Shown: positions 1-22,084 of the stretch, piece after piece | Numbering within the stretch: position 1 is the first letter of the stretch | Layout: each line of letters begins with the position of its first letter | Assembly: GCF_918741295.1 (NCBI RefSeq) | Contig: NZ_CAKKNB010000004.1 | Coordinates: 186,001 to 250,000, forward strand | Length of the DNA stretch: 64,000 nucleotides | From: Aquabacterium sp. CECT 9606 | GTDB taxonomy: Bacteria; Pseudomonadota; Gammaproteobacteria; Burkholderiales; Burkholderiaceae_C | Reading direction: 5' to 3' | The notes under the pieces: model-generated | What the model saw: only the letters and a program-made list of their open reading frames with translations | Databases searched by the model: none | Told to the model about the DNA's origin: nothing | Program-made: the position numbers and the translations under genes

Positions 1-879
1 GAAGATGGGGTTCTTGATGCCGTACTTGGCCATGCCGCCCTTGATGACCGACACGCGCATGTGCACCCAGCCGGCCATCTCGATGGCGCCGCAGAAGGTG
101 ATCTCGCCATCGCCCTGGCTGAAGTGCAGGTCGCCCACGCTCAGGCCCGCGCCTTCCACGTACACGGGGAAGAAGACCTTGGAGCCGCGCGACAAGTCCT
201 TGATGTCGCAGTTGCCGCCGTGTTCACGCGGGGGCACCGTGCGGGCGCCTTCGGCCGCGATCTTTTCCTTGGCCGCGCCCGTGGCCTTGCCGGCGTGGGT
301 GGTGGCCCCGAAGGGCGGGTTGGCCAAGGGGGGCACGCGGTCGGGCTGGGTGGCGATGAAGTCCACTTCGCGCTCGTTCCAGGTGGCCAGCATCTTGGGG
401 TCGGGCAGGCAGCCAATCAGGCCGGGGTGGATCAGGCCGGCAAACTCCACACCAGGGATGTGGCGGCTCTTGGTGAACATGCCATTGAAGTCCCAGATCG
501 ACTTCTGCGCCAGCGGGAAGTGCTCGGTCAAGAAACCGCCGCCGTTTTTCTTGCTGAAGAAGCCGTTGAAGCCCCACAGGCTGTCTTGCTTGGCACCGAT
601 GTCCAGCAGCTCCACCACCAGCAGGTCGCCCGGCTCGGCACCCTTCACGCCCACGGGGCCCGACAAAAAGTGCACCGTGGTCAGGTCCACGTCGCGCACG
701 TCGTCGGCGCTGTCGTTGTTCTTGATGTAGCCGCCGGTCCAGTCGTAGGTTTCCAGCACGAAGTCGTCGCCGGGGTTCACCCAGCAGGCCATGGGGATGT
801 CCGGGTGCCAGCGGTTGTGGATGTTCTCGTTGCTGTAGGGCGATTCGTTGAGGTCGACTTTGATGAGGGTTTCAGGCAT
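1..879 (-). CDS. fmdA: Formamidase (acetamidase/formamidase family), 3' end cut by window
   Basis: Hydrolyses formamide (and possibly other short amides) to ammonia and formate in the cytoplasm. The reading frame starts at the ATG ending at 879 and stays open to base 1, giving 293 codons without a stop, so the C-terminus lies outside the window. Recognised from the acetamidase/formamidase family pattern: an N-terminal region containing NRWHPDIPMACWVNPGD, a FLSGPVGVKGAEPGDLLVV segment, HIPGVEFAGLIHPG, and the GDLHFSQGDGEITFCGAIE block that carries family-conserved acidic residues. It is the last gene of the urtABCDE-like operon, 17 bp after urtE, which couples amide uptake to hydrolysis. The family call is firm; the exact amide is an inference from the family. 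Confidence 0.93.
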   Translation of the reverse strand, partial: MPETLIKVDLNESPYSNENIHNRWHPDIPMACWVNPGDDFVLETYDWTGGYIKNNDSADDVRDVDLTTVHFLSGPVGVKGAEPGDLLVVELLDIGAKQDSLWGFNGFFSKKNGGGFLTEHFPLAQKSIWDFNGMFTKSRHIPGVEFAGLIHPGLIGCLPDPKMLATWNEREVDFIATQPDRVPPLANPPFGATTHAGKATGAAKEKIAAEGARTVPPREHGGNCDIKDLSRGSKVFFPVYVEGAGLSVGDLHFSQGDGEITFCGAIEMAGWVHMRVSVIKGGMAKYGIKNPIF

Positions 880-896
880 GGCTTGGCTCCTTTGAC

Positions 897-1586
897 TTAC
901 ACAGAGAGGTATTGCTTGATGCGCGCGACGTCGGTGTCGGCGCGGTCGGTTTCATGGACCAGGCGGCCGCCTTCGATCACGAAGAGGCGGTCGGCCACGT
1001 CCAGCGCGAAGGACAGCACTTGCTCGGACACGATGATCGTGATGTCGCGCATCTTGCGGATCTCGTTCAGGGCCTTGGCGATGTCCTTGATGATGGAAGG
1101 CTGGATGCCCTCGGTGGGCTCGTCGAGCAGCAGCACCTTGGGGTTGGTGACCAGCGCGCGGGCGATGGCCAGTTGCTGCTGTTGCCCGCCCGACAGGTTG
1201 CCGCCCTTGCGCGCGCGCATGTCGAACAGCACGGGGAAGAGCGCGTAGATCTCATCGGGGATGCGCTTGTGCTTGGCGTTTTCCAGGCCGGTCTGGATGT
1301 TCTCTTCCACCGTCAGGGTGGGGAAGATCATGCGGCCCTGCGGCACATAGGCGATGCCCTTGGCCACGCGGCGGTAGCTCTCGTCCTTGGTGACATCAAG
1401 CCCGCCCACTTCGACCTTGCCCGACTTGGTGGGCAGCACGCCCATCAGGCTCTTGAACAGCGTGGTCTTGCCCATGCCGTTGCGGCCCATGATGGCCACG
1501 GTTTCCTTGGATTTGGCCTCGAACGAGATGCCGTGCAGCGCCTCGCTCTGACCGTATGCGACAAACAGATCGTTGACTGCCAACAT
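897..1586 (-). CDS. urtE: Amide/urea ABC transporter ATP-binding protein UrtE
   Basis: Second ATPase of a branched-chain-amino-acid-type (HAAT) importer, energising uptake of urea or short amides. It has 229 residues, the usual UrtE length. Walker A is GRNGMGKTT (residues 34-42), the signature is LSGGQQQQ, and Walker B is VLLLDEPTEG; the GIQPSII stretch after Walker B is typical of UrtE. A longer frame continues upstream to 1892 but that part overlaps urtD and is arginine-rich shadow sequence, so the ATG ending at 1586 (MLAVNDLF) is taken as start. It lies between urtD and fmdA in the same operon. Confidence 0.94.
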   Translation of the reverse strand: MLAVNDLFVAYGQSEALHGISFEAKSKETVAIMGRNGMGKTTLFKSLMGVLPTKSGKVEVGGLDVTKDESYRRVAKGIAYVPQGRMIFPTLTVEENIQTGLENAKHKRIPDEIYALFPVLFDMRARKGGNLSGGQQQQLAIARALVTNPKVLLLDEPTEGIQPSIIKDIAKALNEIRKMRDITIIVSEQVLSFALDVADRLFVIEGGRLVHETDRADTDVARIKQYLSV

Positions 1587-1612
1587 GGTGTTGCTTTCCT
1601 TGGCTTGAAGGC

Positions 1613-2356
<744 letters not shown>

Positions 2357-2379
2357 GATTCAGTCGTTCCTTGTGGCGG

Positions 2380-3597
2380 TCAGGCTTGCTGGTTGCTCAT
2401 GCCGTTGGGCATCTGCGGTGTGGGCGGTGTGGGCGTGGTGGACTGGGGCACGGCTGCCACGGGCTTGGCATCGTCCGCATCGCGGGCCTTGCGGCGTGCC
2501 TTCTCTGCTGCCAGATCAACACGGCGCTTGGCGGCCCAGGGCTTGATCTTTTCTTCGTACAAACCAGCCAAGCCGTTGGGGAAGGCCATCACCACACCGA
2601 TGAACAGCGCGGCCATCAGGAACAGCCACAGGTCAGGCGCCGTCTCCGAAAAGTACGTCTTGCCCGCGTTGACCAGCAAGGTGCCGTACACCGCGCCGAC
2701 CAGGCTCATGCGCCCACCCACCGCGGCAAAGATCACCATCTCGATCGAGGGCACGATGCCCACGAAGGACGGCGACATGAAGCCCACTTGCAAGGCGAAC
2801 ATCGCGCCACCAATGCCCGAGATGCCGGCCGCCAGGCAGAAGGTGAAGACCTTGAACATCGACACGTCGTAGCCCGAGAAGCGAACGCGGTCTTCCTTGT
2901 CACGCATGGCCAGCAGCAGGGTGCCCAGTTTGCTGGTCTGCACCCATTTGCACAGCAGGATGCAGCCCAGCAGCAAGCCCGCGTTCACGAAGTACAAGAT
3001 CAGCTTGGCGTGGTCGGTGCGGGTGTCCCAACCCAGCACGGTCTTCAGGTCGGTCATGCCGTTCACGCCACCGGTGTAGCCCTGCTGGCCAATGATCAGC
3101 ACGGTCAGGATCAGTGCCACCGCCTGCGTGATGATGGCGAAGTACACGCCCCCCACGCGGCGCTTGAACATGGCGTAGCTGATGATGAAGGCCAGCAAGG
3201 TGGGCACCAGGATCACCGCGATCAAGGTGAGGGGCAGGCTTTGAAACGGCTTCCAGAACAGCGGCAGGGCCGTGATCTGGTTCCAGTCCATGAAGTCAGG
3301 GATGCCGGGGGTGGACTGGATCTTGGTGGTCACCGGGTCAGAGGCTTCCAGCTTCAGGAACATGGCCATGCAGTAACCACCCAGGCCGAAGAACACGCCC
3401 TGGCCCAGGCTCAAGGTGCCGCTCCAGCCCCACAGCATCACCAGGCCGATGGCCACGAAGCCGTAGGTCAGGTACTTGCCCACCAGGTTCAGGCGGAAGA
3501 TGTCCATCGACAGCGGGAACACCACCAGGATCACCAGGGCCAGCAACAAGATGCTGCCCAGACTCGACGTTTTCAACCAGTTCAAAAGACTCTTCAT
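2380..3597 (-). CDS. urtC: Amide/urea ABC transporter permease UrtC
   Basis: Inner-membrane permease of the importer, 405 residues, with about nine to ten hydrophobic segments beginning at residues 13-31. The loop GWSGTLSLGQGVFFGLGGY is the LivM/UrtC hallmark. The C-terminal tail of about 60 residues after EEKIKPW is cytoplasmic, rich in Lys/Arg and then in Pro/Thr (PQSTTPTPPTPQMP), and looks disordered. It stands between urtB and urtD in the operon. Confidence 0.94.
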   Translation of the reverse strand: MKSLLNWLKTSSLGSILLLALVILVVFPLSMDIFRLNLVGKYLTYGFVAIGLVMLWGWSGTLSLGQGVFFGLGGYCMAMFLKLEASDPVTTKIQSTPGIPDFMDWNQITALPLFWKPFQSLPLTLIAVILVPTLLAFIISYAMFKRRVGGVYFAIITQAVALILTVLIIGQQGYTGGVNGMTDLKTVLGWDTRTDHAKLILYFVNAGLLLGCILLCKWVQTSKLGTLLLAMRDKEDRVRFSGYDVSMFKVFTFCLAAGISGIGGAMFALQVGFMSPSFVGIVPSIEMVIFAAVGGRMSLVGAVYGTLLVNAGKTYFSETAPDLWLFLMAALFIGVVMAFPNGLAGLYEEKIKPWAAKRRVDLAAEKARRKARDADDAKPVAAVPQSTTPTPPTPQMPNGMSNQQA

Positions 3598-3631
3598 GAG
3601 TAGCTACTCCGTGTATCAGTCAAGTCGGGAT

Positions 3632-4546
3632 TCAGCGGCGCACCTTGGAGGCGAACAGGCCTTGCGGACGGATCATCAAGATCACCACGATCAGCGACAG
3701 CGTCAGCACCTTGGCCATGGAGCCAGTGATGAAGAACTCAGCGATGGACTGCGTTTGCGCGATGCCGAAGGCCGAGGCCACGGTGCCCAGCAAGCTGGCC
3801 GCGCCACCGAAGGTCACCACCAGGAAGGCGTCGACGATATAGAGCGAACCCGAGGTGGGGCCGGTGGAGCCAATGGTGGTGAAGGCCGCGCCCGCGATCC
3901 CGGCGATGCCGCAACCAATGGCGAAGGTGAGGCGGTCAGTGCGGCTGGTGTTGATGCCGATGGCGTTGGCCATCATGCGGTTGGAGACCGAGGCGCGAAC
4001 ACGCAGGCCCCAGCGTGATTTGTACAGCGCGAGCATCACGCCGGCGGTCACCAAAGCCGTCAGGCCCATCACGAACATGCCGTTGATGGGGATGTCCAGG
4101 CCTTCTTTGGGGGCCCATGAACCCATCAGCCATTCGGGCAGGGTGGGGCTCACTTCCTTGGGGCCGATGAAGGTGCGAAAGCATTGCTGCATGCCCAGGC
4201 TCAAGCCCCAGGTGGCGAGCAGGGTGTCCAGCGGGCGCTTGTACAGGTGGCGGATCAACGCCCACTCGGCCAGGTAGCCGACCACGAACGCGAAGATGAA
4301 GGCCAGGACGATGGCGCAGGGAAAGTAATAGGGAAGGAAGTTGGGGTACTTCGCTTCAACGTAGCTGGACACCATGTAGATGGTGTAAGCGCCGATGGTC
4401 ATGAACTCGCCGTGCGCGAGGTTGATCACGCCCATCTGGCCAAAGATGATGGCCAGGCCCAGGCCCATGAGCAGCAGCACCGAGAACAGGCTCAAGCCTG
4501 CAAACCCCTGCATCACGCTGATGTTGAGTATTTCTGAAAGAGTCAT
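3632..4546 (-). CDS. urtB: Amide/urea ABC transporter permease UrtB
   Basis: Inner-membrane permease of the LivH/UrtB family, about 304 residues and seven to eight membrane segments. The segment FGQMGVINLAHGEFMTIGAY is the family fingerprint. The frame can be extended to a GTG ending at 4570, but the ATG ending at 4546 has a GAGG five bases upstream and gives the usual N-terminus MTLSEILNISVMQGF, so it is preferred. This is the short form of UrtB: it lacks the large N-terminal periplasmic extension seen in some homologues. A 117 bp gap holding strong hairpins separates it from urtA. Confidence 0.93.
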   Translation of the reverse strand: MTLSEILNISVMQGFAGLSLFSVLLLMGLGLAIIFGQMGVINLAHGEFMTIGAYTIYMVSSYVEAKYPNFLPYYFPCAIVLAFIFAFVVGYLAEWALIRHLYKRPLDTLLATWGLSLGMQQCFRTFIGPKEVSPTLPEWLMGSWAPKEGLDIPINGMFVMGLTALVTAGVMLALYKSRWGLRVRASVSNRMMANAIGINTSRTDRLTFAIGCGIAGIAGAAFTTIGSTGPTSGSLYIVDAFLVVTFGGAASLLGTVASAFGIAQTQSIAEFFITGSMAKVLTLSLIVVILMIRPQGLFASKVRR

Positions 4547-4592
4547 GAGGTCCTCGCGCGCCAAAGTCACTGATCAAGCAAACACCGCGGAT

Positions 4593-4650
4593 CCGGCTAT
4601 GCCGGTCCGCTGGTGTTGCCCCCTTGAGGGGGCGGCCGAAGGCCGCAGGG
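4593..4650. repeat. Run of three GC-rich hairpins between urtA and urtB
   Basis: Three inverted repeats follow each other: CCGGC-TAT-GCCGG (4593-4605), GCCCCCT-TG-AGGGGGC (4618-4633) and GCGGCC-GAA-GGCCGC (4632-4646), followed by a G-run. The layout is like the intergenic GC-rich hairpin elements common in Comamonadaceae genomes. In an operon read from urtA to urtB it could stabilise or attenuate the transcript so that the binding protein is made in excess. The inverted repeats are seen directly; the role is inferred. Confidence 0.6.
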
Positions 4651-4663
4651 GGTGGGCCTTCCT

Positions 4664-5920
4664 TTACTGGTAACCCTTGGGGAAAGGATTCGGTTCGATC
4701 AGGTCTTTGGACTCGGCCACCACCTTGAAGGTGCCGTCAGGCTGGCCTTGGGCGATGCGGGCCTTGCTCCACAAGTGATGGTTCTCGTGCAGCTTCACGT
4801 AGCCTTCAGGCGCGATCTTCAACTCGATGCCTGGCGAGGCGGCCACCACCTTGTCCACGTCGAAGCTGCCGGCCTTTTCAACCGCGGCTTTCCACAACCA
4901 TGGGCCCAGGTAACCGGCTTGCGTCACGTCGCCGATCACCGATTTGGGGCCGTACTTGCCCTTGAACGCGGCAACGAACTTCTTGTTGTTGTCGTTGTCC
5001 AGGCTTTGGAAGTACTTCATCGACGAGTAGAAGCCGGCGAAGTTTTCGCCACCCACGCCGAGCATTTCGTCCTCGGTCACCGACAAGGTCAGCAGGAACT
5101 GCTTGGCGCCCGTGATGCCGGCGGCCTTGAGCTGCTTGTAGAAGGCCACGTTGGAGCCACCCACCACGGCCGCGAAGATGCAATCGGGCTTGGCCACCTT
5201 GATCTTGTTGATCAGGGAGTTGAAGTTGGTGTTGCCCAGTGGGTAGTACTCTTCACCCACGACCTTGCCCAGCTTGCCCACCGATTCGATGTGCTTGCGC
5301 GCGATCTTCATCGAGGTGCGGGGCCAGATGTAGTCAGAGCCCACCAGGAAGAAGGTTTTGGCCTTCTTCTCTTTCGAGGCCCAGTCCAGGCCCCAGATGA
5401 TTTGCTGCGTGGCTTCCTGGCCGGTGTAGATCACGTTCTTGGACTGCTCCAGGCCTTCGTAGAAGGTGGGGTAGTACAGCAGGCCGTTTTCCTTTTCAAA
5501 GACGGGCAGCACGGCCTTGCGCGAGGCCGATGTCCAGCAGCCGAACACGGCAGCGACGTGGTCGTTGACCAGCAGCTTTTTGGACTTCTCGGCAAACGTG
5601 GGCCAGTCGGAGGCGCCGTCTTCCTTGATGACCTTGATCTTGCGGCCCAGGATGCCGCCCATGGCGTTGATCTGGTCGATGGCCAACTGCTCGGCCTGGA
5701 TCGAGCCGGTTTCCGAAATGGCCATGGTGCCGGTGGCGGAGTGCAACTGGCCCACGGTGACTTCGGTGTCGGTCACGGCCAGCTTGGTCGTGTTGACGGC
5801 GGCGGTGGCGGGGGCGGCTCCGTAGCTCAGCCCCGTCATGCCCACGAGGGGAAGGGCACCGATGCCTTGCAACAGGCGGCGGCGGTTTTGCTGATTGGAA
5901 TCGTCACGGTCATTCGACAT
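4664..5920 (-). CDS. urtA: Amide/urea ABC transporter substrate-binding protein UrtA/FmdD-like
   Basis: Exported binding protein that captures the substrate for the UrtBCDE importer; 418 residues. The start at 5920 has AAGGAG eight bases upstream; a longer frame to 5989 is rejected. The N-terminus carries NRRRLLQGIG followed by a hydrophobic stretch and an Ala-rich cleavage region, suggesting export by the Tat route. The mature part begins VTVGQLHSATGTMAISE and includes DGASDWPTFAEKSKKLL, typical of the UrtA/AmiC/FmdD peripleasmic amide-binding group. Because a formamidase gene ends the operon, the ligand may be a short-chain amide as in the Methylophilus Fmd system rather than urea; sequence alone does not decide. 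Confidence 0.92.
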   Translation of the reverse strand: MSNDRDDSNQQNRRRLLQGIGALPLVGMTGLSYGAAPATAAVNTTKLAVTDTEVTVGQLHSATGTMAISETGSIQAEQLAIDQINAMGGILGRKIKVIKEDGASDWPTFAEKSKKLLVNDHVAAVFGCWTSASRKAVLPVFEKENGLLYYPTFYEGLEQSKNVIYTGQEATQQIIWGLDWASKEKKAKTFFLVGSDYIWPRTSMKIARKHIESVGKLGKVVGEEYYPLGNTNFNSLINKIKVAKPDCIFAAVVGGSNVAFYKQLKAAGITGAKQFLLTLSVTEDEMLGVGGENFAGFYSSMKYFQSLDNDNNKKFVAAFKGKYGPKSVIGDVTQAGYLGPWLWKAAVEKAGSFDVDKVVAASPGIELKIAPEGYVKLHENHHLWSKARIAQGQPDGTFKVVAESKDLIEPNPFPKGYQ

Positions 5921-5967
5921 GGAAAAGCTCCTTGCACACAAAAAGGGACTACAGATGCCACGCCTTG

Positions 5968-5993
5968 GTGCATGCATGATTTCGTGCATGCAC
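5968..5993. promoter_or_regulatory. Inverted repeat, possible operator between urtA and the permease-kinase gene
   Basis: A perfect 9-bp inverted repeat, GTGCATGCA, eight-base spacer, TGCATGCAC, lies in the 201-bp divergent interval between urtA and the permease-histidine kinase gene, about 48 bp upstream of the urtA start. Its position fits an operator for the adjacent LuxR-type response regulator or a nitrogen regulator. No clear sigma-54 -24/-12 element was seen on either strand here. The repeat is seen; the binding role is inferred. Confidence 0.4.
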
Positions 5994-6121
5994 TGTTGGT
6001 GTGACCATGTCCATCACAGTAAGCAAGAGCCAGGCTTCCTTGAATACGTCATTCAACGTAGGTGAGGCGGTGGATCGCTTCTTGCAATTGCCATAGAGTC
6101 TTCATTCCACGGAGCCAGTCT

Positions 6122-9100
6122 GTGTCCGTTGCCCGGCAGAAGATCTTTCGCATCCGTCGTGACTACAACTCCTGGGTGGCCAACGAAACCCTGGAGGACT
6201 ACGCGCTTCGCTACACGCCACGCACCTTCCGCAAGTGGTCGGAGTTCCGCGTGGCCAACACGGCGTTCGGCGCGGTGTCCTTTTTGGCGCTGGAGGCCAT
6301 TGGCGGCGCCATTGCGCTGAACTACGGCTTCTCGAACATGCTGTGGGCCACGCTGGTGGTGGGCTTGATCATCTTCATGACAGGCCTGCCCATCAGCTAC
6401 TACGCGGCCAAGTACGGGGTTGACCTGGACTTGCTCACGCGCGGCGCGGGCTTTGGCTACCTGGGCTCCACGCTCACCTCGCTGATCTACGCCAGCTTCA
6501 CTTTCATCTTCTTTGCGCTGGAGGCGGCCATCATGGCGCTCGCCTTGCAGATGGTGTTCGACTGGTCATTGCCGGTGTGCTACCTGGCGTCGTCGCTGGT
6601 GATCGTGCCGCTGGTCACGCACGGCATCACGCTCATCTCGCGCCTACAGTTGTGGACGCAGCCCTTGTGGGCACTGATGTTCGTGTGCCCCTTCGTGTTC
6701 GTGGCCATCAAGCGGCCCGAGGCCTATGTCGAGTTCACCGGCATGGTGGGGCGCAGCTCGGGCAGCAGCGATTTCAACCTGATGGCCTTTGGCATGGCGG
6801 CCACGGTGGTGTTCTCGCTGATCGTGCAGGTGGGTGAGCAGGTCGACTTTCTGCGCTTCTTGCCTGAGAAAACCAAAGAGAACCGCGTGCGCTGGTGGAC
6901 GGCGGTGTTGGTGGCGGGGCCGGGCTGGATCGTGCCGGGCATGCTCAAGATGGTGGGCGGGGGCTTTCTTGCCTTTCTGGCCCTGCAGCACAACGTTCCA
7001 GCCGACAAGGCCATGGAGCCCACGCAGATGTACCTGGCCGGGTTCGGCGAGGTCTTCACCTCGCCCACCTGGGCACTGGGCACGATGGTGTTGTTCGTCA
7101 TCGTCTCGCAGGTCAAGATCAACGTCACCAATGCCTATGCGGGTTCGCTGGCCTGGTCCAACTTCTTCGCGCGGCTCACGCACAGCCACCCCGGGCGCGT
7201 GGTGTGGCTGGTGTTCAATGTGTTGATCGCCGTCATGCTGATGACGCTGGGCGTGTTCGGCGCACTGGAGCGTGTGCTGGGCTTGTATGGCAACGTGGCC
7301 ATTGGCTGGGTGGGCGCGCTGGTGGCTGATCTGGTCATCAACAAGCCGCTGGGCTGGAGCCCAAAACACATCGAGTTCAAGCGCGCCTATTTGTATGACC
7401 TGAACCCCGTGGGTTTGGGGGCCACTTTGCTGGCCACGGTGATGGCCTTCGCGGCGCACGCGGGCATGTTCGGCGCGCTGGCGCAGGCGGGCTCGCCTTT
7501 CATCGCCTTGACCACCGCGCTGATCGCCTCGCCTTTGCTGGCCTGGACCACCCAGGGCCGCTATTACCTGGCGCGGCCCAACAAGACGCCTTGGGCACCG
7601 GGCCAGATGGTGGCCTGCTCGGTGTGCGAGAACCAGTTCGAGTCAGAAGACATGGCGACGTGCCCGGCTTACGACGCGCCCATCTGCTCCTTGTGCTGCA
7701 CCCTGGAGTCACGCTGCCATGACCGCTGCAAGAGCCGGTCGCGCGCGGCCGAGCAGGTGTCTGATGCACTCACCGCGGTGCTGCCACTGCAACTGTCCAG
7801 CCGCATCAATTTCCGGGTGGGGCACTACCTGGTCGTCTTCTTGTCACTGGCCGCCGTGTTGGCGATGGTGCTGGGCGTGGTCTATTACCAGGAGGGCGTG
7901 GTCAACCACGTGGTGGATGCCGTGAACGGCCCGGCCGTGGCCATGCTCGAAGGCCCTTTCATCAAGGCCTATGCCTTGCTGCTGCTGGCGGCCGCCGTGT
8001 GTTCATGGTGGGTGGTGCTGGCCTCGGAAAGCCGGCGCCTGGCGCAAGACGAAAGCAACCGTCACAACCAGTTGCTGCAGCTGGAGATCGACGCCCACCG
8101 CCGCACCGATGCCGCCTTGCAAGCCGCCAAGGACCTGGCCGAGGCCGCCAACCAGGCCAAGACGCGCTACGTGGCCGGCATGACGCACGAGTTGCGCACG
8201 CCGCTCAACAGCATCATGGGTTACGCGCAGATATTGCTGAAGGATGAGCCGCGACAGGGCTCGGGCCGCGAAGCCCTCAACACCATCCAGCGCAGTGGCG
8301 AACACCTGATGGGCCTGATCGACGGGCTGCTGGACCTGGCCCGCATCGAGGCCGGCCGTTTGCGGCTGGACCCGGTGCCCCTGCCCCTGCGCGAGTTCCT
8401 GGACGATGTGGTGCGCATGGTGCAGACGCAGACCCAGGCCAAGGGCCTGGACTTCGCGCTGGAGACCCGTGGCCGCGTGCCTGCATGGGTGTATGCCGAT
8501 GCCAAGCGCCTGCGCCAGATCTTGCTGAACCTGTTGAGCAACGCCGCGCGCTTCACCTACAAAGGCCGCATCACGCTGCTGGTGGACGCGCGCCGCGAGG
8601 TGCTGCGCTTTGAAGTGATCGACACCGGCATTGGCATCGCGCCCCAAGACCTGGACCGCATCTTCCTGCCGTTTGAGCGTGGCAGTGCGGGCCGCCGCAG
8701 CAGCGAGCCGGGCACGGGCCTGGGCCTGACCATCACCCACCTGCTGACCGAGCTGATGGGGGGCGAGTTGAGTGTGAAGAGCGAGCTGGGGCAGGGCAGC
8801 ACCTTCACCGTGCGCATGTACCTGCGCGAGATTGCCGAGCCCGCCATGCCGCCGCAATCGGCCCTGGCCGCCAGGCCACGCCATTTGCCGATCACGGCCT
8901 ACGACGGCGCGCGCCGCACCTTGCTGGTGGTGGACGATCAACCCATCCAGCGGCAGATGCTGGCGGGCATGCTGCTGCCCTTGGGCTTCATTTTGCGCGA
9001 GGCGGCCAGCGGCCTGGAGTGCCTTGAAAGCGTGCGGGAAGCTTGCCCCGACGCGGTGTTGCTGGACATCACCATGGACGATGTCGATGGCTGGCAAGTG

Positions 9101-9589
9101 GCCCGCCAGATCCGCGCGGCTGGCTTCACCGAGGTGCCCATCATCATGGTGTCGGCCAATGTGTTCGAGAACCGGCCCGAGAACCTGCAAGCCGCGCAAT
9201 GCCAGGCCTTTGTGGCCAAGCCGGTGATTGAGTCTGAACTGCTGGACACCTTGGGCGAGCATCTCCACATCGAGTGGAGTGCCGAGCCGGCCGCTTTGCC
9301 CTTGCACCTGCTGGGCCAGCGCCACAACGAGGCCGAGGCCATTGGTGCCCCGCGCCTGACGGCCAGCGACCTGCCCCTGGAGGTGGTGGAAGAGCTGTGC
9401 CGCCTGGCCCGCATTGGCCACCTGCGCGCGCTTCGTGAAAAGCTGACGCAGTTGGCCGAGCGCTATCCGCAATGGCAAAGCGAGTGGGTCAACCTGTCCC
9501 ACCTGGCCGACCAATTCGAGTTCGACACCTTGATCGAGCGTTTGAACCCCGTGATCTCTGAGGATGCTTTGGATGAGCCCCAAGCCTGA
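6122..9589 (+). CDS. NCS1-type permease fused to hybrid sensor histidine kinase
   Basis: A 1155-residue fusion. Residues about 10-480 form a multi-pass NCS1-type (cytosine/purine/allantoin permease family) transporter-like domain starting with FRKWSEFRVANTAFGAVSFL. Residues 499-536 are a cysteine-rich stretch (CSVC...CSLCC...CHDRC). Two more membrane segments follow, then a HisKA domain with phospho-acceptor His689 in GMTHELRTPLNS, an HATPase (NLLSNAARF, DTGIGI, GTGLGLTI) and a receiver with Asp982 in LLDITMDD, plus a tail of about 120 residues. The GTG at 6122 has GGAG seven bases upstream and is preferred to the GTG at 6062. It overlaps the next regulator gene and is divergent from the amide/urea importer, so it probably senses a nitrogen compound and controls that operon. 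The architecture is clear; ligand and targets are inferred. Confidence 0.92.
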   Translation: MSVARQKIFRIRRDYNSWVANETLEDYALRYTPRTFRKWSEFRVANTAFGAVSFLALEAIGGAIALNYGFSNMLWATLVVGLIIFMTGLPISYYAAKYGVDLDLLTRGAGFGYLGSTLTSLIYASFTFIFFALEAAIMALALQMVFDWSLPVCYLASSLVIVPLVTHGITLISRLQLWTQPLWALMFVCPFVFVAIKRPEAYVEFTGMVGRSSGSSDFNLMAFGMAATVVFSLIVQVGEQVDFLRFLPEKTKENRVRWWTAVLVAGPGWIVPGMLKMVGGGFLAFLALQHNVPADKAMEPTQMYLAGFGEVFTSPTWALGTMVLFVIVSQVKINVTNAYAGSLAWSNFFARLTHSHPGRVVWLVFNVLIAVMLMTLGVFGALERVLGLYGNVAIGWVGALVADLVINKPLGWSPKHIEFKRAYLYDLNPVGLGATLLATVMAFAAHAGMFGALAQAGSPFIALTTALIASPLLAWTTQGRYYLARPNKTPWAPGQMVACSVCENQFESEDMATCPAYDAPICSLCCTLESRCHDRCKSRSRAAEQVSDALTAVLPLQLSSRINFRVGHYLVVFLSLAAVLAMVLGVVYYQEGVVNHVVDAVNGPAVAMLEGPFIKAYALLLLAAAVCSWWVVLASESRRLAQDESNRHNQLLQLEIDAHRRTDAALQAAKDLAEAANQAKTRYVAGMTHELRTPLNSIMGYAQILLKDEPRQGSGREALNTIQRSGEHLMGLIDGLLDLARIEAGRLRLDPVPLPLREFLDDVVRMVQTQTQAKGLDFALETRGRVPAWVYADAKRLRQILLNLLSNAARFTYKGRITLLVDARREVLRFEVIDTGIGIAPQDLDRIFLPFERGSAGRRSSEPGTGLGLTITHLLTELMGGELSVKSELGQGSTFTVRMYLREIAEPAMPPQSALAARPRHLPITAYDGARRTLLVVDDQPIQRQMLAGMLLPLGFILREAASGLECLESVREACPDAVLLDITMDDVDGWQVARQIRAAGFTEVPIIMVSANVFENRPENLQAAQCQAFVAKPVIESELLDTLGEHLHIEWSAEPAALPLHLLGQRHNEAEAIGAPRLTASDLPLEVVEELCRLARIGHLRALREKLTQLAERYPQWQSEWVNLSHLADQFEFDTLIERLNPVISEDALDEPQA

Positions 9590-10181
9590 ACCCCACCTGG
9601 GCACCGTGCTGGTGGTGGACGATGCCGTCGACACCTTGCGCATGCTGTGCGATGCGCTGGCCAACGAGGGCTACACCGTGCTGGTGGCCCGCGATGGCCA
9701 GCAGGCGCTGGACCGCCTGTCGCTGATCCTGCCCGATGCCATCCTGCTGGACGCGGTGATGCCGGGCCTGTCGGGCTTTGACACTTGCCGTCGGATCAAG
9801 GCCCACGAGGTCTGGTGCAAGATCCCGGTGATCTTCATGACCGGCCTGTCTGAGACCGCCGACGTGGTGGCGGGGTTTGACGCCGGTGGCGTGGACTACG
9901 TGGTCAAGCCTGTGCGCATCGAAGAGGTGTTGGCCCGCCTGGCCACGCACCTGCGCAACGCCTGGGGCACGCGCCCGCGACTGGACCTGGCCGCGCTAAC
10001 CCCGCGCGAAACCGAGGTGTTGTCCTGGCTGGCCAAGGGCAAGACCAACCGCGACATCGCCGAGATCCTGGGCCTGAGCCACCGCACGGTGAACAAGCAC
10101 CTGGAGCACATCTTTGAAAAGCTGGGGGTGGAGACGCGCGCGGCCGCGGCGGCCTTGGCCAGCCGCGCGGTGCTGGCCTGA
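9573..10181 (+). CDS. LuxR-type response regulator, partner of the permease-kinase
   Basis: DNA-binding response regulator of the NarL/FixJ type, about 202 residues. The receiver starts TVLVVDDAVDTLRML with acceptor Asp in DAILLDAVMPGLSG, and has the Lys of VDYVVKPV. The C-terminal LuxR helix-turn-helix is LTPRETEVLSWLAKGKTN...LGLSHRTVNKHLEHIF. The ATG at 9573 has GAGG nine bases upstream and overlaps the kinase stop by 17 bp, indicating translational coupling. It is probably phosphorylated by the kinase encoded just upstream and likely acts on the neighbouring importer operon. Confidence 0.93.
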   Translation: MSPKPEPHLGTVLVVDDAVDTLRMLCDALANEGYTVLVARDGQQALDRLSLILPDAILLDAVMPGLSGFDTCRRIKAHEVWCKIPVIFMTGLSETADVVAGFDAGGVDYVVKPVRIEEVLARLATHLRNAWGTRPRLDLAALTPRETEVLSWLAKGKTNRDIAEILGLSHRTVNKHLEHIFEKLGVETRAAAAALASRAVLA

Positions 10182-10200
10182 TCCACGCGCCCATCCACCA

Positions 10201-10929
10201 TCACCAGATCACCAGGTTGTTGGTGAGGAAGCGCTGCAGCCAATTGCGTGAGCCGGCATCCGACACGTCACCCTGGCCGCCCACCTCGAAGCGCGCGTTC
10301 AGCACGTCTTCGGAGGCGACGATGTTGCCCGCCTTGACGGTTTTGGGGTTGACCACGCCATGGAAGCGCAGGTTGCTGGTGCCGCCATTGAGGGTGATGC
10401 TGCGCTCGCCTGCCACCAACAGGTGCCCGTTGGGCAGCACGTTGATGACCGATGCCGTGAGCAGTGCATTGAAGGTGCCGGCGTTGTCGGTCGTGCCCTT
10501 GCCCTTGTAGGCGTCGCTGCCGGCCGCGCTGGCGTCCACGTTCAACACCCGGTCGATGAAGCCGCCATTGGGGTTCGCGGTGCCGGGCCCCTTGGTGCTG
10601 ACCTTGTTCTCGCGGCTGGTGCTGGTGTTGACCTTGCTCGTCGCTGCGAATTTTTCAGCGATGTCGATTTTCAAGGTGTCGCCGACGTACCGGGGTTTTC
10701 GGTCGCCCGAGAAGAGCGATGTGGCGTCCATGCCCGCCTGGAACAAAGATCCGGTATTGATCTTCTCGATGTAGGCAGGTGTTTCCTGGGGCGCTGTCGA
10801 CATGGGCAAGTTGGCAAATGGCGACGTCGAACTGCAGCCGAGCAAGGTATTCAGACAGGGCAGGGCCACGGCGCAGACGGTGATCCGGCGCCGAATCGAC
10901 ATTTGGGAGGTATTGAATTTCATATTCAT
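10201..10929 (-). CDS. flgH: FlgH-like flagellar L-ring lipoprotein, isolated copy
   Basis: Outer-membrane lipoprotein of the FlgH family (flagellar L-ring), 242 residues. The lipobox is LLGC at about residue 32. Family features are SLFSGDRKPRYVGDTLKI, the VLPNGHLLVAGERSITLN strand pair, LRFHGVVNPKTV and the C-terminal NWLQRFL. An AAGGAA lies before the ATG ending at 10929. No other basal-body gene adjoins it; instead it is third in a small unit after an unknown gene and another lipoprotein gene. It may be the cell's only FlgH or a diverged second copy working elsewhere. The family call is good, the role less certain. Confidence 0.8.
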   Translation of the reverse strand: MNMKFNTSQMSIRRRITVCAVALPCLNTLLGCSSTSPFANLPMSTAPQETPAYIEKINTGSLFQAGMDATSLFSGDRKPRYVGDTLKIDIAEKFAATSKVNTSTSRENKVSTKGPGTANPNGGFIDRVLNVDASAAGSDAYKGKGTTDNAGTFNALLTASVINVLPNGHLLVAGERSITLNGGTSNLRFHGVVNPKTVKAGNIVASEDVLNARFEVGGQGDVSDAGSRNWLQRFLTNNLVIW

Positions 10930-10933
10930 GGTG

Positions 10934-11494
10934 TTATTCCTTGATATTCTCGTCGCCCGTGATCAGGGCCTGCACCACCGGGGCCAGTTTGGCGCGGGTG
11001 CTGGCCCATTTTCCAATCCCGAATGGGCCGCCGGGGTCATAATGGCTGCTGGCCAATATCTGTTCGCTGCCATTCCACAAGGTCAGGGTGGCTTGCTGGA
11101 TATAAGGTTTGTAATCGCCCCCCAAGGGTGGAATATCCAAACCCGTGTAGGCGCTGTACCGAAGCCAGAATTTGCACAGGCCGGTGGCCGACCGTGTCTC
11201 ATATACCCGGCTTTCCACGCGCTGGGCTTTGAGTTCAATCTGCAGCGCCGGCAAGATGTCGGGCACCTGGGTGTTGGGGTTGAACTCGATGCACACGCTG
11301 CGCACTGGCGGGTGCAGGTGGTAGACCGTGTTGATGGCCTTGCCAGGCGCCGCCGTGCTCACAGCAGCGGTGACCGTGGCGCCCGAAGCCTTGGCCAGCT
11401 CCCACAGCGGATGGGGGCTGAACACCGAGCAGGCCGTGAGCAGCGGCGACGACAGCGTCAAGGCTGCCAGGATGGACAAGGGGCGGGCGTACAT
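10934..11494 (-). CDS. Small lipoprotein, resembles Sbal_3080 family
   Basis: Predicted lipoprotein of 186 residues with a signal peptide MYARPLSILAALTL and lipobox LTAC. After the signal it has an Ala/Thr-rich linker, a conserved-looking VCIEFNPNTQV segment with a cysteine, a second cysteine in GLCKFWLRY, a strand TLTLWNGSEQILASSHY and the ending KLAPVVQALI. This pattern recalls the Sbal_3080 family of small lipoproteins of unknown function; that match is from memory and not checked. It lies four bases before the flgH-like gene and 10 bp after the upstream unknown gene, so it is probably co-transcribed. The ATG at 11494 is chosen because it begins the signal peptide. Confidence 0.75.
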   Translation of the reverse strand: MYARPLSILAALTLSSPLLTACSVFSPHPLWELAKASGATVTAAVSTAAPGKAINTVYHLHPPVRSVCIEFNPNTQVPDILPALQIELKAQRVESRVYETRSATGLCKFWLRYSAYTGLDIPPLGGDYKPYIQQATLTLWNGSEQILASSHYDPGGPFGIGKWASTRAKLAPVVQALITGDENIKE

Positions 11495-11504
11495 GTTCGG
11501 CGCC

Positions 11505-11978
11505 TCAGACGATCTTGTTGAAGGCCGTGACGCCGGCGATGACGGCGTGCCCCACGTAGCTCTCGGCCGAGTCAATGGCGCTGCTCACGGCGTCCGCCAC
11601 GGTGGAGGCGCCTTCCGAGATGGCTTCGCCCGCCTCTGACAACTCTTTGCCGATGTAGCGCGCGGCGGCCTTGACCTCATTGACGCCGTCCTGCGCGGCG
11701 TCTTCCACCGTGTCGATGGCTTTGCTCACGAAGGAGGTGGTGGCGTGCAGGGCGGAGTCGGCCGCGTGGTAGGCATCGCGGGACACCTTGGCCAGTTCCG
11801 AGAGCCCTTCCTGGCTGATGGCGCACACGGCGCTGGCGGTCGGTGCGCTGGCCGCTGCGGCTGCCGACAGGGCACTGGACATCATCGGACCAAACGAGCT
11901 TGAATCACCGGTTTTGCTGGCGGCGTTGACCGTGGAGGCGGCGCTGGGGCGCACCGAATAATTGCTGATGCCATTCAT
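11505..11978 (-). CDS. Small Ala/Ser-rich protein of unknown function
   Basis: A 157-residue protein I do not recognise. The first 60 residues are Ser/Ala-rich and low in complexity; the rest is a likely amphipathic helix with regularly spaced Ala and Val (SKAIDTVEDAAQDGVNEVKAA, EAISEGASTVADAVSSAI), a style seen in apolipoprotein- or late-embryogenesis-like helices. No signal peptide. The ATG has GGAG seven bases upstream, supporting it as a real gene. It heads the unit leading to the lipoprotein and FlgH-like genes and is divergent from an OmpR-type regulator. Confidence 0.7.
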   Translation of the reverse strand: MNGISNYSVRPSAASTVNAASKTGDSSSFGPMMSSALSAAAAASAPTASAVCAISQEGLSELAKVSRDAYHAADSALHATTSFVSKAIDTVEDAAQDGVNEVKAAARYIGKELSEAGEAISEGASTVADAVSSAIDSAESYVGHAVIAGVTAFNKIV

Positions 11979-12414
11979 TTCAAAACTCCGATAGGTGGAT
12001 GAGGTGAATGAATGCTAGGTGCCGAAATAATCCCCGTTCTTTCAATCTGGCCTCGGAAACGGCGGTATTTGGCCGCCGCCTTACCGTGGTGCTACACCCA
12101 TATCACAAACCACTCATAAATAGAGGCCAACCTCATGCGCGCCTCACCTCGCGTCACAATGTGATGATTTTGTGTTGAAGTTGAAATGTGGGTTCAGATC
12201 AATTTTGTGAAGTTGGGTTCGCTTTCGAAAAGTTATGTTAAATCGGGTAAGCGGCCGGTGCGCTCATTCAATATGGGTAAACTGTGTTTTTCCCTGGCGT
12301 GAAAATGTCATGAACCACATTGGCCAATAAAGACCTCCCGCCATGACCTTATGGGCAGATCAAGGCGCCGACCCCATCTCTAGGATGCGGTTTCCTTCCC
12401 AACGCAGTACCACG
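11979..12414. other. 436-bp noncoding divergent promoter region
   Basis: No coding sequence is seen here. The stretch 12100-12345 is richer in A and T than its surroundings, as expected for two divergent promoters. It holds a small palindrome, TCACA-A-TGTGA (12154-12164). No convincing -35/-10 pair or sigma-28 site could be assigned by eye. Confidence 0.6.
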
Positions 12415-18494: not shown

Positions 18495-20300
18495 ATGAAC
18501 GCTCCCCTTGATGATTCGACCCCCCACAAACCCAGCAACTTCCTGCGCGGCATCATTGACCGCGACCTGGAGCAGGGCACGTATGCCAGCCGCCGATGGG
18601 CCGGCACACCCGGTGACGCCCAACACCAACTGAGCGGGCAACCCGATCCGGCCAAGGTCCGCACCCGTTTCCCGCCCGAGCCCAACGGCTACCTGCATGT
18701 GGGCCATGCCAAGAGCATCTGCCTGAATTTTGGCCTGGCACGCGATTACGGCGGCGTCTGCCACATGCGCTTCGACGACACCAACCCTGAAAAAGAAGAA
18801 CAGGAATACGTCGACAGCATCCTGGACTCGGTCAAGTGGCTGGGCTTCGGCTGGCAATCGAACTTCAATGGCCAGCAGCAGGACCACCTCTACTACGCCA
18901 GCAATTACTTCGATTTCATGTACCGCGCGGCCGAAGCCCTGATCGGTGCTGGCCTGGCCTATGTGGACGAGCAGACCCCCGAAGAAATGCGCGCCAACCG
19001 CGGTGACTTCACCACGCCCGGCAAGGACAGCCCTTTCCGCTCGCGCACGCCCGAGCAGAACCTGGCCCGTTTCCGCGAAATGCGCGATGGCCAGCATGCC
19101 GACGGCAGCATGGTGCTGCGCGCCAAGATCGACATGGCCGCGCCGAACATCAACTTGCGCGACCCGGCCATCTACCGCATCCGCCGCGCCACCCACCACA
19201 ACACGGGCGACAAGTGGTGCATCTACCCGATGTACACCTTCGCGCACCCGATCGAAGACGCCCTGGAGCAGATCACGCATTCGATCTGCACGTTGGAGTT
19301 TGAGGACCAGCGCCCCTTCTATGACTGGCTGCTCGACCGACTGGCCGAACTGGGCCTGCTGCAACAACCCACGCCCAAGCAGTACGAATTCGCGCGTCTG
19401 AACCTCACCTACGTCATCACCAGCAAGCGCAAGCTCAAGCAACTGGTGGACGAAGGCACGGTTGAAGGTTGGGACGACCCGCGCATGCCTACCATCGTTG
19501 GCCTGCGCCGCCGTGGCTACACGCCCGAGGCCATCCAGCTGTTCTGCGAACGCATTGGCGTGACCAAGGCCGACAGCTGGATCGACTACAGCACGCTGGA
19601 CATCGCCTTGCGTGACGACCTGGAGAACAAGGCCCACCGTGGCATGGCCGTGCTCGATCCGGTCAAGCTGGTGCTGAACAACTGGGACGAGGTTTTTTCA
19701 AACGGCCACCTGGAGCCCTGCGCGCTGCCCGCCCTGCCGCACCCGCCCGAAGGCACTGAATCGCCAGTGCGCCACTTCACGCTGGGCAAGGAAGTGTGGA
19801 TCGAGCGCGAGGACTTCGAGGAAGTGCCGCCCAAGGGCTACAAGCGCCTCTTCCCCGGCAACAAGGTGCGCCTGAAGGGCGGCTACGTGATCGAGTGCAC
19901 CGGCTGCGCCAAAGACGCCGATGGCCGCGTGATCGAGGTTCACGCCACCGTGGTGCCCGACACCAAGAGTGGCACACCCGGCGCCGACAGCGTCAAGGTC
20001 AAGGCCGCCATCACCTGGGTTGGCGTGGCCGATGGCGTGGCCGCCGAGGTGCGCCTGTACGACCGCCTGTTCACCGATGCGCAACCGGATGCCGGTGGCA
20101 AGGACTTCCTGGCCAGCCTGAACCCCGACAGCAAGAAGGTCGTCACGGCCTTTGTGGAGCCTTCACTGGCCCAGGCCGCGCCTGACCAGAAGTTCCAGTT
20201 CGAGCGGCACGGCTATTTCGTGGCCGACCGCAAGGACCATGTGGCCGGCAAGCCCGTGTTCAACCGGGTGACGGGCTTGAAGGACAGCTGGGGCAAGTGA
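18495..20300 (+). CDS. glnS: Glutamine-tRNA ligase GlnS
   Basis: Class I aminoacyl-tRNA synthetase charging tRNA-Gln, 601 residues. The ATP-site motif is PPEPNGYLHVGHAKS, followed by the acidic DTNPEKEEQEYVDSI loop; the KMSKS-equivalent is VITSKRKL. The anticodon-binding beta-barrels occupy the C-terminal third (EVWIEREDFEEVPPKGYKRL). The length is slightly greater than the E. coli enzyme. The last 41 bp overlap the 3' end of the convergent PEP-CTERM gene. Confidence 0.98.
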   Translation: MNAPLDDSTPHKPSNFLRGIIDRDLEQGTYASRRWAGTPGDAQHQLSGQPDPAKVRTRFPPEPNGYLHVGHAKSICLNFGLARDYGGVCHMRFDDTNPEKEEQEYVDSILDSVKWLGFGWQSNFNGQQQDHLYYASNYFDFMYRAAEALIGAGLAYVDEQTPEEMRANRGDFTTPGKDSPFRSRTPEQNLARFREMRDGQHADGSMVLRAKIDMAAPNINLRDPAIYRIRRATHHNTGDKWCIYPMYTFAHPIEDALEQITHSICTLEFEDQRPFYDWLLDRLAELGLLQQPTPKQYEFARLNLTYVITSKRKLKQLVDEGTVEGWDDPRMPTIVGLRRRGYTPEAIQLFCERIGVTKADSWIDYSTLDIALRDDLENKAHRGMAVLDPVKLVLNNWDEVFSNGHLEPCALPALPHPPEGTESPVRHFTLGKEVWIEREDFEEVPPKGYKRLFPGNKVRLKGGYVIECTGCAKDADGRVIEVHATVVPDTKSGTPGADSVKVKAAITWVGVADGVAAEVRLYDRLFTDAQPDAGGKDFLASLNPDSKKVVTAFVEPSLAQAAPDQKFQFERHGYFVADRKDHVAGKPVFNRVTGLKDSWGK

Positions 20301-21279
20301 ATAGTGGTTTGCGACGCGAGAGGACGCCCAGCAAACCCAGCCCCACCAGCGCGATGACGTAGGACTCGGGCTCGGGCACCGGCATGGCCGACAGCACGAT
20401 CAGCTGCGACTGCGGATTGGCCGGGCCGAAACCGTCCTGGATCTGCTCGGCCACCAGGTAGATGGTGCCTTTCTCGTCCACGGTCACGCCTTCGATGCCG
20501 TTGTGGGGCAGCACGTTGGACAGGTCGAAGAAGCTCAGGACCTGGCCCTGGCGGTTCACCTCGACCAGCTTGCGCGAACCCAGGCTCAGCACCAGCAGAT
20601 TGTCGGCTGCGGCGGTGCCGGCCAACGCGTCCACGGGCGACAGCGTCTGCACATCGGACAAGGTCGACAGGCCCATCAGCGTGGGATCGAACAAGGTCGT
20701 CGTGTTGGCCACGCCGCCCAGGTTGTTGCCGAAGGTCAATGTTCCGCTGCGGATGTCCTCGGGCACGTCCTGCTTGACCATCACGAAGCTGCCGTTGCGT
20801 GGGTCGTGGCTGATGCCTTCGAGGCCATCGTTGCCCACGTTGGCATTGCTGATGGACACGGACGCGTTGGCCAGGTTGGCGGTGCCATTGGCGGCGTAGG
20901 TGAAGCGGTAGGCGTCGTACAGGCGCTCTTCGCTCACCACCAGCACGCCGTTGCCCAGGTAGGTCAGGCCCTCGGTGTCGTGCTTGCTGCTGCCGGTGTT
21001 GGACCAGTTGAAGGCCATGGTGCCGAGCGTCTGGCCCGTGAGCGAGACCTCGACCACACCCGTGCCTTCGTCACCGACGTAGAACAGGGTGCCGCGGTCG
21101 CGCGCGTAGGTGACGGCCGAGGCTTCCAGGCCCGACACACCCGTGCTGGTGTTGCCCAGGATGTCGAGCCCATAGGTGCCCGTGACCTGGTAGTTGCCAA
21201 GGTTGATGGAACTGGCCGCATGCGCGCCCAGGCTGGCCAGCGCGGCCACGAGGGCCATCGTCAAGTGTTTGATCTTCAT
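20260..21279 (-). CDS. PEP-CTERM protein with SdiA-regulated/esterase-like beta-propeller
   Basis: Exported protein of 339 residues with signal peptide MKIKHLTMALVAALASLGAHA. The body looks like the SdiA-regulated (phytase-like) propeller: LEASAVTYARDRGTLFYVGDEG, TEGLTYLGNGVLVVSEERL, GLEGISHDPRNGSFVMVKQD, NGIEGVTVDEKGTIYLVAE. Near the end is the PEP-CTERM sorting signal VPEPESYVIALVGLGLLG and a short LSRRK, recognised by exosortase. Unusually, about 15 more residues rich in Pro, Ser and Cys follow, encoded antisense to glnS. The enzyme activity is unknown. Confidence 0.88.
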   Translation of the reverse strand: MKIKHLTMALVAALASLGAHAASSINLGNYQVTGTYGLDILGNTSTGVSGLEASAVTYARDRGTLFYVGDEGTGVVEVSLTGQTLGTMAFNWSNTGSSKHDTEGLTYLGNGVLVVSEERLYDAYRFTYAANGTANLANASVSISNANVGNDGLEGISHDPRNGSFVMVKQDVPEDIRSGTLTFGNNLGGVANTTTLFDPTLMGLSTLSDVQTLSPVDALAGTAAADNLLVLSLGSRKLVEVNRQGQVLSFFDLSNVLPHNGIEGVTVDEKGTIYLVAEQIQDGFGPANPQSQLIVLSAMPVPEPESYVIALVGLGLLGVLSRRKPLFTCPSCPSSPSPG

Positions 21280-21303: not shown

Positions 21304-21999
21304 TCAGCGCTGTTGGCGCTTGCGAGCCATCACACCGAACAGGCCGAGGGCGGCCAGCGCGAGCACGTAGCTTTCGGGTTCGGGCACGGCGGCGATGCTG
21401 CCGGGCGAGCCGATCTCGATGGCATGGTTGGCCGCCGCGAAGGCGCCGTTGACACCGACCACGCTCAACTGTGTGATGGTGGTGTTGTTCAGCCCGATGG
21501 CGTTGTCGAAGGTCTGGTAAGGCGAGGTGGCGTCAGAAGCGCCGAACACCACATTGGCCTGCAGCACGTTGCTGGCGTTGTAGATGTTGACCGCGTCACC
21601 CGACTGGCTCAGGCCCACGCCGCTGCCGGTGTAGGTGCCGATCTGCAAGCCGGCGGGTGCGTTCGCACCGAACCAGGTGCTCAGGAAGCTGGCCGAGGCG
21701 GCGGTCTCGGTGAAGATCACTGACTCACCGGCCTTGATGGTGGAGATGCCGACCAGCGACACCTTGGCGCTGCCATTGGAGCTGTCGTCCATCTTCCAGC
21801 CGCTGATGCTGATATCGCTGCTGCCGAAGTTGGTCAACTCGAACCAGTCGGTGGCATAGGGGATGGCCGGGTTGCTGGCGCTGCTGCCCCAGGGGGCAAC
21901 TTCGGTGACGCGGATCTGGGCCTGGGCCGTGGCGGCGGTGTCCAAGCTCAAGGCCAGGACGGTCGCGGCCAGCAAGGCCTTCTTCTGAACTGCTTTCAT
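21304..21999 (-). CDS. PEP-CTERM protein with lamin-tail-like domain
   Basis: Exported protein of 231 residues. The signal peptide is MKAVQKKALLAATVLALSLD with Ala-rich cleavage site. The body, beginning IRVTEVAPWGSSASNPAIPYATDWFELTN and continuing ISGWKMDDSS, is a lamin-tail (LTD) beta-sandwich as found in many surface proteins. The C-terminus VPEPESYVLALAALGLFGVMARKRQ is a standard PEP-CTERM signal. The start at 21999 has GGAG six bases upstream. It lies 24 bp before the other PEP-CTERM gene and is likely co-transcribed with it. Its role, probably in the extracellular matrix, is inferred. Confidence 0.9.
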   Translation of the reverse strand: MKAVQKKALLAATVLALSLDTAATAQAQIRVTEVAPWGSSASNPAIPYATDWFELTNFGSSDISISGWKMDDSSNGSAKVSLVGISTIKAGESVIFTETAASASFLSTWFGANAPAGLQIGTYTGSGVGLSQSGDAVNIYNASNVLQANVVFGASDATSPYQTFDNAIGLNNTTITQLSVVGVNGAFAAANHAIEIGSPGSIAAVPEPESYVLALAALGLFGVMARKRQQR

Positions 22000-22084
22000 C
22001 GACAACTCCAATTGAACGCATGACAAAGGGTGAAGCCCGGCAGCTTGTCGTTCGCGTGTGTCGGCGTGATGACTGCAGGACTGG

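Follow-up and report, generated by a model that had tools for sequence, protein, structure and literature searches.

Background

The closest described systems are the SLC5/STAC kinases (CbrA, CrbS/MxtR and RpuS), in which, in the portions of PMC7918813, PMC9100948 and PMC13022988 covered here, a transporter of LeuT fold is fused to a histidine kinase or hybrid histidine kinase; CrbS and RpuS are paired with LuxR-family regulators, and RpuS/R controls a transporter gene. Ks-Amt5 of Kuenenia is presented in the covered part of PMC5764959 as a nutrient transporter made into a kinase-fused receptor for a small nitrogen compound, with transport lost. Importers of the urt type are found in fmd/ami amide operons. 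In the covered text of PMC3098086 a urt-like set adjoins an acetamidase/formamidase gene, and its substrate is argued to be an amide other than urea. The covered text of PMC13209695 describes a Pseudomonas veronii for which formamide and acetamide each serve as sole nitrogen source; its chromosome carries amiE, fmdA, fmdB and urtABCDE, and a plasmid holds another acetamidase operon. Here we describe a gene of Aquabacterium sp. CECT 9606, located in a stretch of 64,000 nucleotides (contig NZ_CAKKNB010000004.1, positions 186,001 to 250,000; “the window”), that joins an NCS1-like membrane domain to a hybrid histidine kinase through a Cys-rich module and stands opposite the same importer-formamidase gene set. 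With a probability of roughly 0.75, we read the product as a receptor for amides that derives from an amide/urea permease and drives the divergent promoter.

In the proposed mechanism, the N-terminal part would be a receptor whose ancestor was an NCS1-type amide/urea permease. A small amide, with formamide and acetamide the likeliest candidates, would bind the old substrate site and shift the LeuT-like fold. This shift would be relayed to the histidine kinase by the Cys-rich module and a continuous helix, and phosphate would move to a LuxR/NarL-type regulator from the overlapping gene. The regulator would bind a palindrome at 6045-6060 and activate urtABCDE-fmdA for import and hydrolysis, and perhaps its own operon too; a paralogue in the same genome would play the equivalent role for urea beside the urease operon. 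The sensor-regulator pair very probably controls urt-fmdA, and a small amide is likely to be the ligand of the sensor.

The likeness to CbrA proposed by the first-pass annotation holds for the joining of a transporter to a kinase and fails for the parts: the membrane domain is NCS1 rather than SLC5, the Cys-rich module and helices replace STAC and PAS, and the context is amide or urea. Membership of the SLC5/STAC family was rejected, since no SSF (SLC5), STAC or PAS hit was obtained at Pfam E≤1 and both hhalign and the predicted fold point to NCS1. A Ks-Amt5 type was rejected as well (no Amt/Rh Pfam hit at E≤1, NCS1-like fold); Ks-Amt5 has a trimeric Amt fold, whereas the present family is NCS1 and occurs in many genera. 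In the text covered, the two accounts of fmd/ami operons do not mention a sensor kinase (“histidine kinase” and “two-component” have 0 occurrences in that of PMC13209695), “NCS1” has 0 occurrences in that of the three SLC5 kinase papers, and no NCS1-kinase fusion was found in the literature searched.

Kinship and parts of the fusion protein

The window membrane domain was related to NCS1 by profile-profile comparison (hhalign, 99.4%), and CodB and Mhp1 rank first among the matches to its predicted fold. The domain itself gave no Pfam hit, remaining below the curated PF02133 cut-off, and scored 27.9 bits on the NCBIfam CodB model (cut-off 326). Two relatives, 44% (L085) and 43% (L188) identical to it, exceed the PF02133 cut-off of 23.5 bits, scoring 31.8 and 37.7; four other scanned unfused relatives stay below it (L090, whose protein is identical to that in L174, L097, L106 and L093). 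The domain is best classed as a distant NCS1 homologue with a predicted NCS1-type LeuT fold. It shares with CodB and Mhp1 the fold, distant sequence kinship and two conserved Asn in transmembrane helix (TM) 8; unlike them, it is fused to a kinase and is proposed to bind an amide rather than a nucleobase.

HisKA, HATPase_c and receiver domains lie in a single chain (Pfam), the make-up of a hybrid histidine kinase, and the overlapping gene encodes a receiver with a GerE helix-turn-helix, as in NarL/FixJ (LuxR-type) regulators. The first-pass annotation had taken the protein for an NCS1-type permease joined to HisKA-HATPase-receiver and coupled to a LuxR-type regulator. The open reading frame, Pfam and the alignment of relatives agree, and the search of the N-terminal domain against NCS1 families, which it had suggested, found the kinship given above.

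Between membrane domain and kinase, Cys 499, 502, 514, 522, 525, 526, 532 and 536 are invariant in 30 of 30 aligned relatives. AlphaFold2 was run on the residues coded by 7565-8224 (predicted local distance difference test score, pLDDT, 85; predicted template modelling score, pTM, 0.53), and predicts a small beta-rich fold for the Cys-rich module, then a helix, then an unbroken helix of ∼90 residues running into the phospho-acceptor helix. Foldseek of the module against the PDB returned nothing significant (best E 0.5, RING/PHD-like).

Gene neighbourhoods

Neighbourhoods were compared at 20 loci (L021-L040; numbers prefixed L and G denote loci and genomes) chosen from the best matches in a search of same-family genomes. 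In 19 of these 20 closest relatives urtABCDE and fmdA lie back to back with the sensor, the arrangement that the first-pass annotation had described in the window; in the twentieth (L040), fmdA stands alone opposite the sensor. FmdA was surveyed with PF03069 in 43 same-family genomes, taking E<1e-170 as full-length and sorting sensor copies by identity. All 9 genomes that have a clade A sensor encode full-length FmdA on the same contig, within 8 kb of it. At any place in the genome, full-length FmdA was encoded in 3 of the 16 genomes with other sensor copies only (G017, G046, G049) and in 0 of 18 without the sensor family; weak or partial matches were obtained in G053 (of the 16) and in G018 and G032 (of the 18). 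The window genome carries a second sensor copy (copy B, G000:C5:102114), which faces ureA-G and is itself followed by another urt set. The sole urease alpha gene of the genome adjoins copy B, and its sole FmdA gene adjoins copy A, the window sensor.

A tree of 132 rows (104 fused, 28 unfused) was used for wider comparison, with neighbours counted within the fetched stretches, some of which are short. The urease and nickel-transporter query proteins were confirmed by Pfam; “AmiE” and “AmiF” denote CN_hydrolase family proteins named by eye. An amide hydrolase gene adjoins 43 fused rows, urease 21, and both 2. The second (urea) clade of 30 rows has urease in 21, amide genes in one (L174) and neither in 8, five of which have the second urt set (L133, L134, L135, L149, L059). 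Urease and amide neighbours need 6 and 14 changes on the tree, against shuffled means of 19.7 and 36.6, and none of 500 shuffles gave counts as low. Judged by these neighbours, the amide and urea tasks look divided between two paralogues. Homologues thus often adjoin amide or urea genes (66 of 104 fused, 14 of 28 unfused), and the possibility raised at the outset that they never do was not borne out.

At L045 (14995-19300), on the urea side, the gap between urtA and urtB of the second urt set (UrtA/UrtC/UrtD 36-50% identical) could hold one more gene of ∼900 bases, as at other loci too.

Intergenic palindrome and regulator

A consensus palindrome of 7-2-7 layout, TACGTCA-NN-TGACGTA, lies upstream of the sensor. 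Matches with ≤1 mismatch were counted within 450 bases upstream of sensor or permease, and random windows from amide loci served as controls. Clade A loci have the palindrome in 31 of 32 cases (28 exact), and other amide-side sensor loci in 15 of 20 (10 exact). It also occurs in 2 of 30 urea-clade loci (L147, and L174, where it is beside fmdA and amiE), in 2 of 27 unfused loci (L094, and once more the site at L174) and in 4 of 1389 control windows; it was found in 0 of 15 basal fused and 0 of 6 methylotroph-clade loci. The sole clade A exception, L044, has ureD and the other urt set as neighbours instead of fmdA. Bradyrhizobium sites deviate from the palindrome at two positions, with the dyad preserved. 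In the window, two matches with ≤1 mismatch were found versus 0.07 expected, that at 6045-6060 being exact. The layout and the TAC...GTA ends resemble NarL sites, which would fit the regulator type. A second inverted repeat, GTGCATGCATGA / TCGTGCATGCAC (5968-5993), lies between urtA and the palindrome and is present in 1 of 41 intergenic stretches.

A regulator-like open reading frame with receiver and helix-turn-helix matches starts −100 to +500 bases from the sensor stop in at least 54 of 100 loci. Note that this count is a floor, since it missed L021 and L025, where the neighbourhood analysis found the regulator. At L124 and L145 the following frame matches the window regulator by the receiver only. 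The window regulator has 205 residues; most of those found have ∼300, their receiver and GerE parts being separated by an insert. A substrate-sensing switch for amide nitrogen, as had been suggested for this locus, fits the conservation of the divergent arrangement and of the palindrome and the pairing with a regulator.

Unfused relatives

The 28 unfused permeases have ∼530-575 residues, and a Cys-rich stretch ends most of them (it is shorter in L173 and in the Klebsiella protein below). Their neighbours are fmdA, amiE or amiF in 7, urease in 5 and both in 2. At L173 the gene order is ureDABCEFG-permease-nickel transporter. In Klebsiella pneumoniae (NZ_CP129771.1; L188:7944-9551), a “cytosine permease” after ureG is an unfused family member and, because of that kinship and place, is probably a urea permease; this urease operon has an insertion sequence (IS) element within the ureC region. 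At L174 an unfused permease followed by fmdA replaces urtABCDE opposite the sensor, with the palindrome between. Here the sensor domain and the carrier that it presumably regulates are homologous, which is the strongest hint to the class of ligand.

Receptor or carrier

Fused and unfused rows are separated at eight positions. In TM1, all 28 unfused rows carry Asp at position 57, whereas 102 of the 104 fused ones carry Leu and 2 Met; position 53 is Ser in 104 of 104 fused and Ala in 26 of 28 unfused rows; position 54 is Phe in 104 of 104 fused and Tyr in 27 of 28 unfused rows. A break of the TM1 helix is predicted at 41-53/56-68, where these positions fall. At position 135 (TM3), beside a near-universal Glu, 102 of 104 fused rows have Ala and all 28 unfused rows Gly; position 340 (TM8) is Ala in 104 of 104 fused and Ser in 28 of 28 unfused rows. 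Such changes at LeuT-like core positions would be expected if coupled transport was lost on becoming a receptor. On balance, the residue pattern favours a fused domain that no longer transports.

The first-pass annotation had left open whether the permease part serves as the sensor or transports a nitrogen compound while signalling. The conserved context fits a sensing role, and transport has probably been lost, with the TM1 Asp and TM8 Ser of every unfused row missing from all fused rows. These absences also count against a domain that both signals and carries the amide, in the manner of CbrA, which transports histidine (in the covered text of PMC7918813). Such double duty would suit the retained fold and the many polar core residues kept in ≥97% of all rows (K332, N334, N337, E134, E239 and Q240). 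A dedicated ATP-binding cassette (ABC) importer is present in 19 of 20 clade A loci, so that uptake is provided elsewhere, and we consider the double role unlikely.

In TM8 of the window domain, Lys-Ile directly precedes the first Asn, where Mhp1 has the sodium-site Ser-Thr. The Lys, two residues before that Asn in ≥97% of all rows, is presumably at the place of the sodium-site Ser, and by this analogy the coupling may be to something other than sodium, even in the unfused relatives.

That the sensor answers to another cue (ammonium, zinc or redox state through the Cys-rich module, or the proton gradient), with the amide genes as mere output, we hold to be improbable. The invariance of the module could be so explained, and the covered part of PMC7918813 calls the stimuli of SSS-type kinases enigmatic. 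Most unfused permeases also end in a Cys-rich module, however, so that the module is not specific to signalling, and the paralogues are divided by neighbouring substrate genes. Least probable is that the membrane domain, instead of binding the amide, monitors the UrtBC importer or loaded UrtA: the pairing with urtABCDE is near-constant in clade A, but L040 and L174 retain the sensor with no urtABCDE within the fetched 20 kb, and nine urea-clade loci (L041, L043, L046, L048, L049, L051, L054, L056, L057) have urease but no urt genes in the stretch.

Several points weigh against a directly sensing amide receptor that drives the divergent promoter. No amide hydrolase or urease gene lies in the fetched DNA of 38 of the 104 fused rows, some of these stretches being short and some having a urt set only; the same holds for 14 of the 28 unfused rows (including six Streptomyces, one Actinacidiphila and some short contigs). 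UrtA scores 522 bits on the urea model TIGR03407 (cut-off 492.75), so that urea may be a ligand of copy A. Common descent alone could retain the sensor-specific residues. The palindrome was defined from the same loci in which it was counted, some of them near-identical. Neither a sigma-70 nor a sigma-54 promoter could be recognised in the DNA that separates the divergent genes. The window site is the only exact palindrome in the genome, yet a reversed control pattern occurs twice; the genome-wide count is therefore uninformative, and the weight rests on place and conservation.

Origin, outputs and occurrence

The 104 fused rows all fall on one side of one branch (Shimodaira-Hasegawa-like approximate likelihood ratio test, SH-aLRT, 99) in a quick, unrooted tree with long branches (L173, L093, L145 and others). 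L139, L158 and L164 were counted as fused though a contig end cuts them before the fusion point. Output domains were read from ten scanned C-terminal parts. The same module is joined to HisKA-HATPase in Cyanobacteria (L100, L104), Polyangium (L120) and L145, to a hybrid kinase in Sorangium (L137), to PAS-kinase-receiver-Hpt in Sulfurimonas (L124), to PAS-GGDEF in L129 and to GGDEF-EAL in L122, L150 and L177; the GGDEF and GGDEF-EAL fusions would link amide or urea to cyclic-di-GMP. We think it rather likely that an unnamed NCS1 branch, nearly all of it Cys-tailed, consists of urea and short-amide carriers and once yielded a transport-dead receptor. Across Proteobacteria, Cyanobacteria, Myxococcota and Campylobacterota, this receptor would have become fused to kinases (histidine and hybrid), to diguanylate cyclases and to GGDEF-EAL proteins, and would divide amide from urea sensing between paralogues.

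The sensor family is real, widespread and coherent. The N-terminal domain was matched in 169 of 299 same-family genomes (at least 4 of which, when checked, are non-members), 17 of 321 genomes of a class sample and 55 of 398 of a phylum sample (a few weakly, e.g. G797 and G979). At least 553 candidate contig stretches encode relatives, and 535 plasmid records carry the sensor domain or a relative, 342 of them from Klebsiella. Database names of the sensor include “ATP-binding protein”, “response regulator”, “hybrid sensor histidine kinase/response regulator” and even ArcB. One Klebsiella IncFIB plasmid (L187, NZ_CP098166.1) has fmdA-urtEDCBA opposite the sensor kinase, near the clpK/hsp20 heat-survival genes.

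If the proposed reading is true, NCS1 joins SLC5 and Amt as transporter families serving kinase sensors, a ligand is predicted for many kinases now named only generically, and urea/amide permeases such as the Klebsiella “cytosine permease” are given the class that they lacked. The paralogue pairs, unfused carriers and sensor-specific residues make the conversion of transporter to receptor directly testable.

Features of the window

Coordinates are collected in Table 1. All five subunits of the UrtABCDE importer exceed their NCBIfam cut-offs; the open frames of urtA and urtE extend beyond the likely starts, to 5989 and 1892.

Table 1. Features of the sensor locus, in window positions
Feature	Position	Strand	Evidence
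NCS1-like permease/Cys-rich module/hybrid histidine kinase gene, 1155 residues	6122..9589	+	Open reading frame, Shine-Dalgarno sequence, Pfam, alignment of 30 relatives
NCS1-like membrane domain (proposed ligand sensor), residues 20-485	6179..7576	+	
Cys-rich, zinc-finger-like module	7616..7732	+	Alignment of 30 relatives
Further helix (model 83-118), then long predicted helix (125-217) into phospho-acceptor helix	7811..8215	+	AlphaFold2
HisKA, phospho-acceptor His in THELRTPL	8156..8356	+	PF00512, E 1.1e-19
HATPase_c	8498..8821	+	PF02518, E 8e-28
Receiver of hybrid kinase	8924..9250	+	PF00072, E 8.7e-19
LuxR/NarL-type response regulator, overlapping the kinase gene end	9564..10181	+	PF00072 (receiver), PF00196 (GerE)
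Palindrome TACGTCATTCAACGTA, proposed regulator site between divergent genes	6045..6060	none	
urtA, substrate-binding protein; likely start 5920, AAGGAG upstream	4664..5920	-	TIGR03407
urtB, permease subunit	3632..4570	-	TIGR03409
urtC, permease subunit	2380..3597	-	TIGR03408
urtD, ATP-binding subunit	1613..2356	-	TIGR03411
urtE, ATP-binding subunit; likely start 1586	897..1586	-	TIGR03410
fmdA, formamidase, truncated by window edge (G000:C4:185728-186858)	1..879	-	PF03069, E 3.6e-181

An Rfam scan of window positions 1-12000 gave no family at threshold. After the regulator, the product of 10201-10929 (minus strand) resembles by eye an FlgH-like flagellar L-ring lipoprotein. Farther on, 20260-21279 and 21304-22026 (minus strand) encode two secreted proteins whose ends resemble, by eye, a PEP-CTERM sorting signal.

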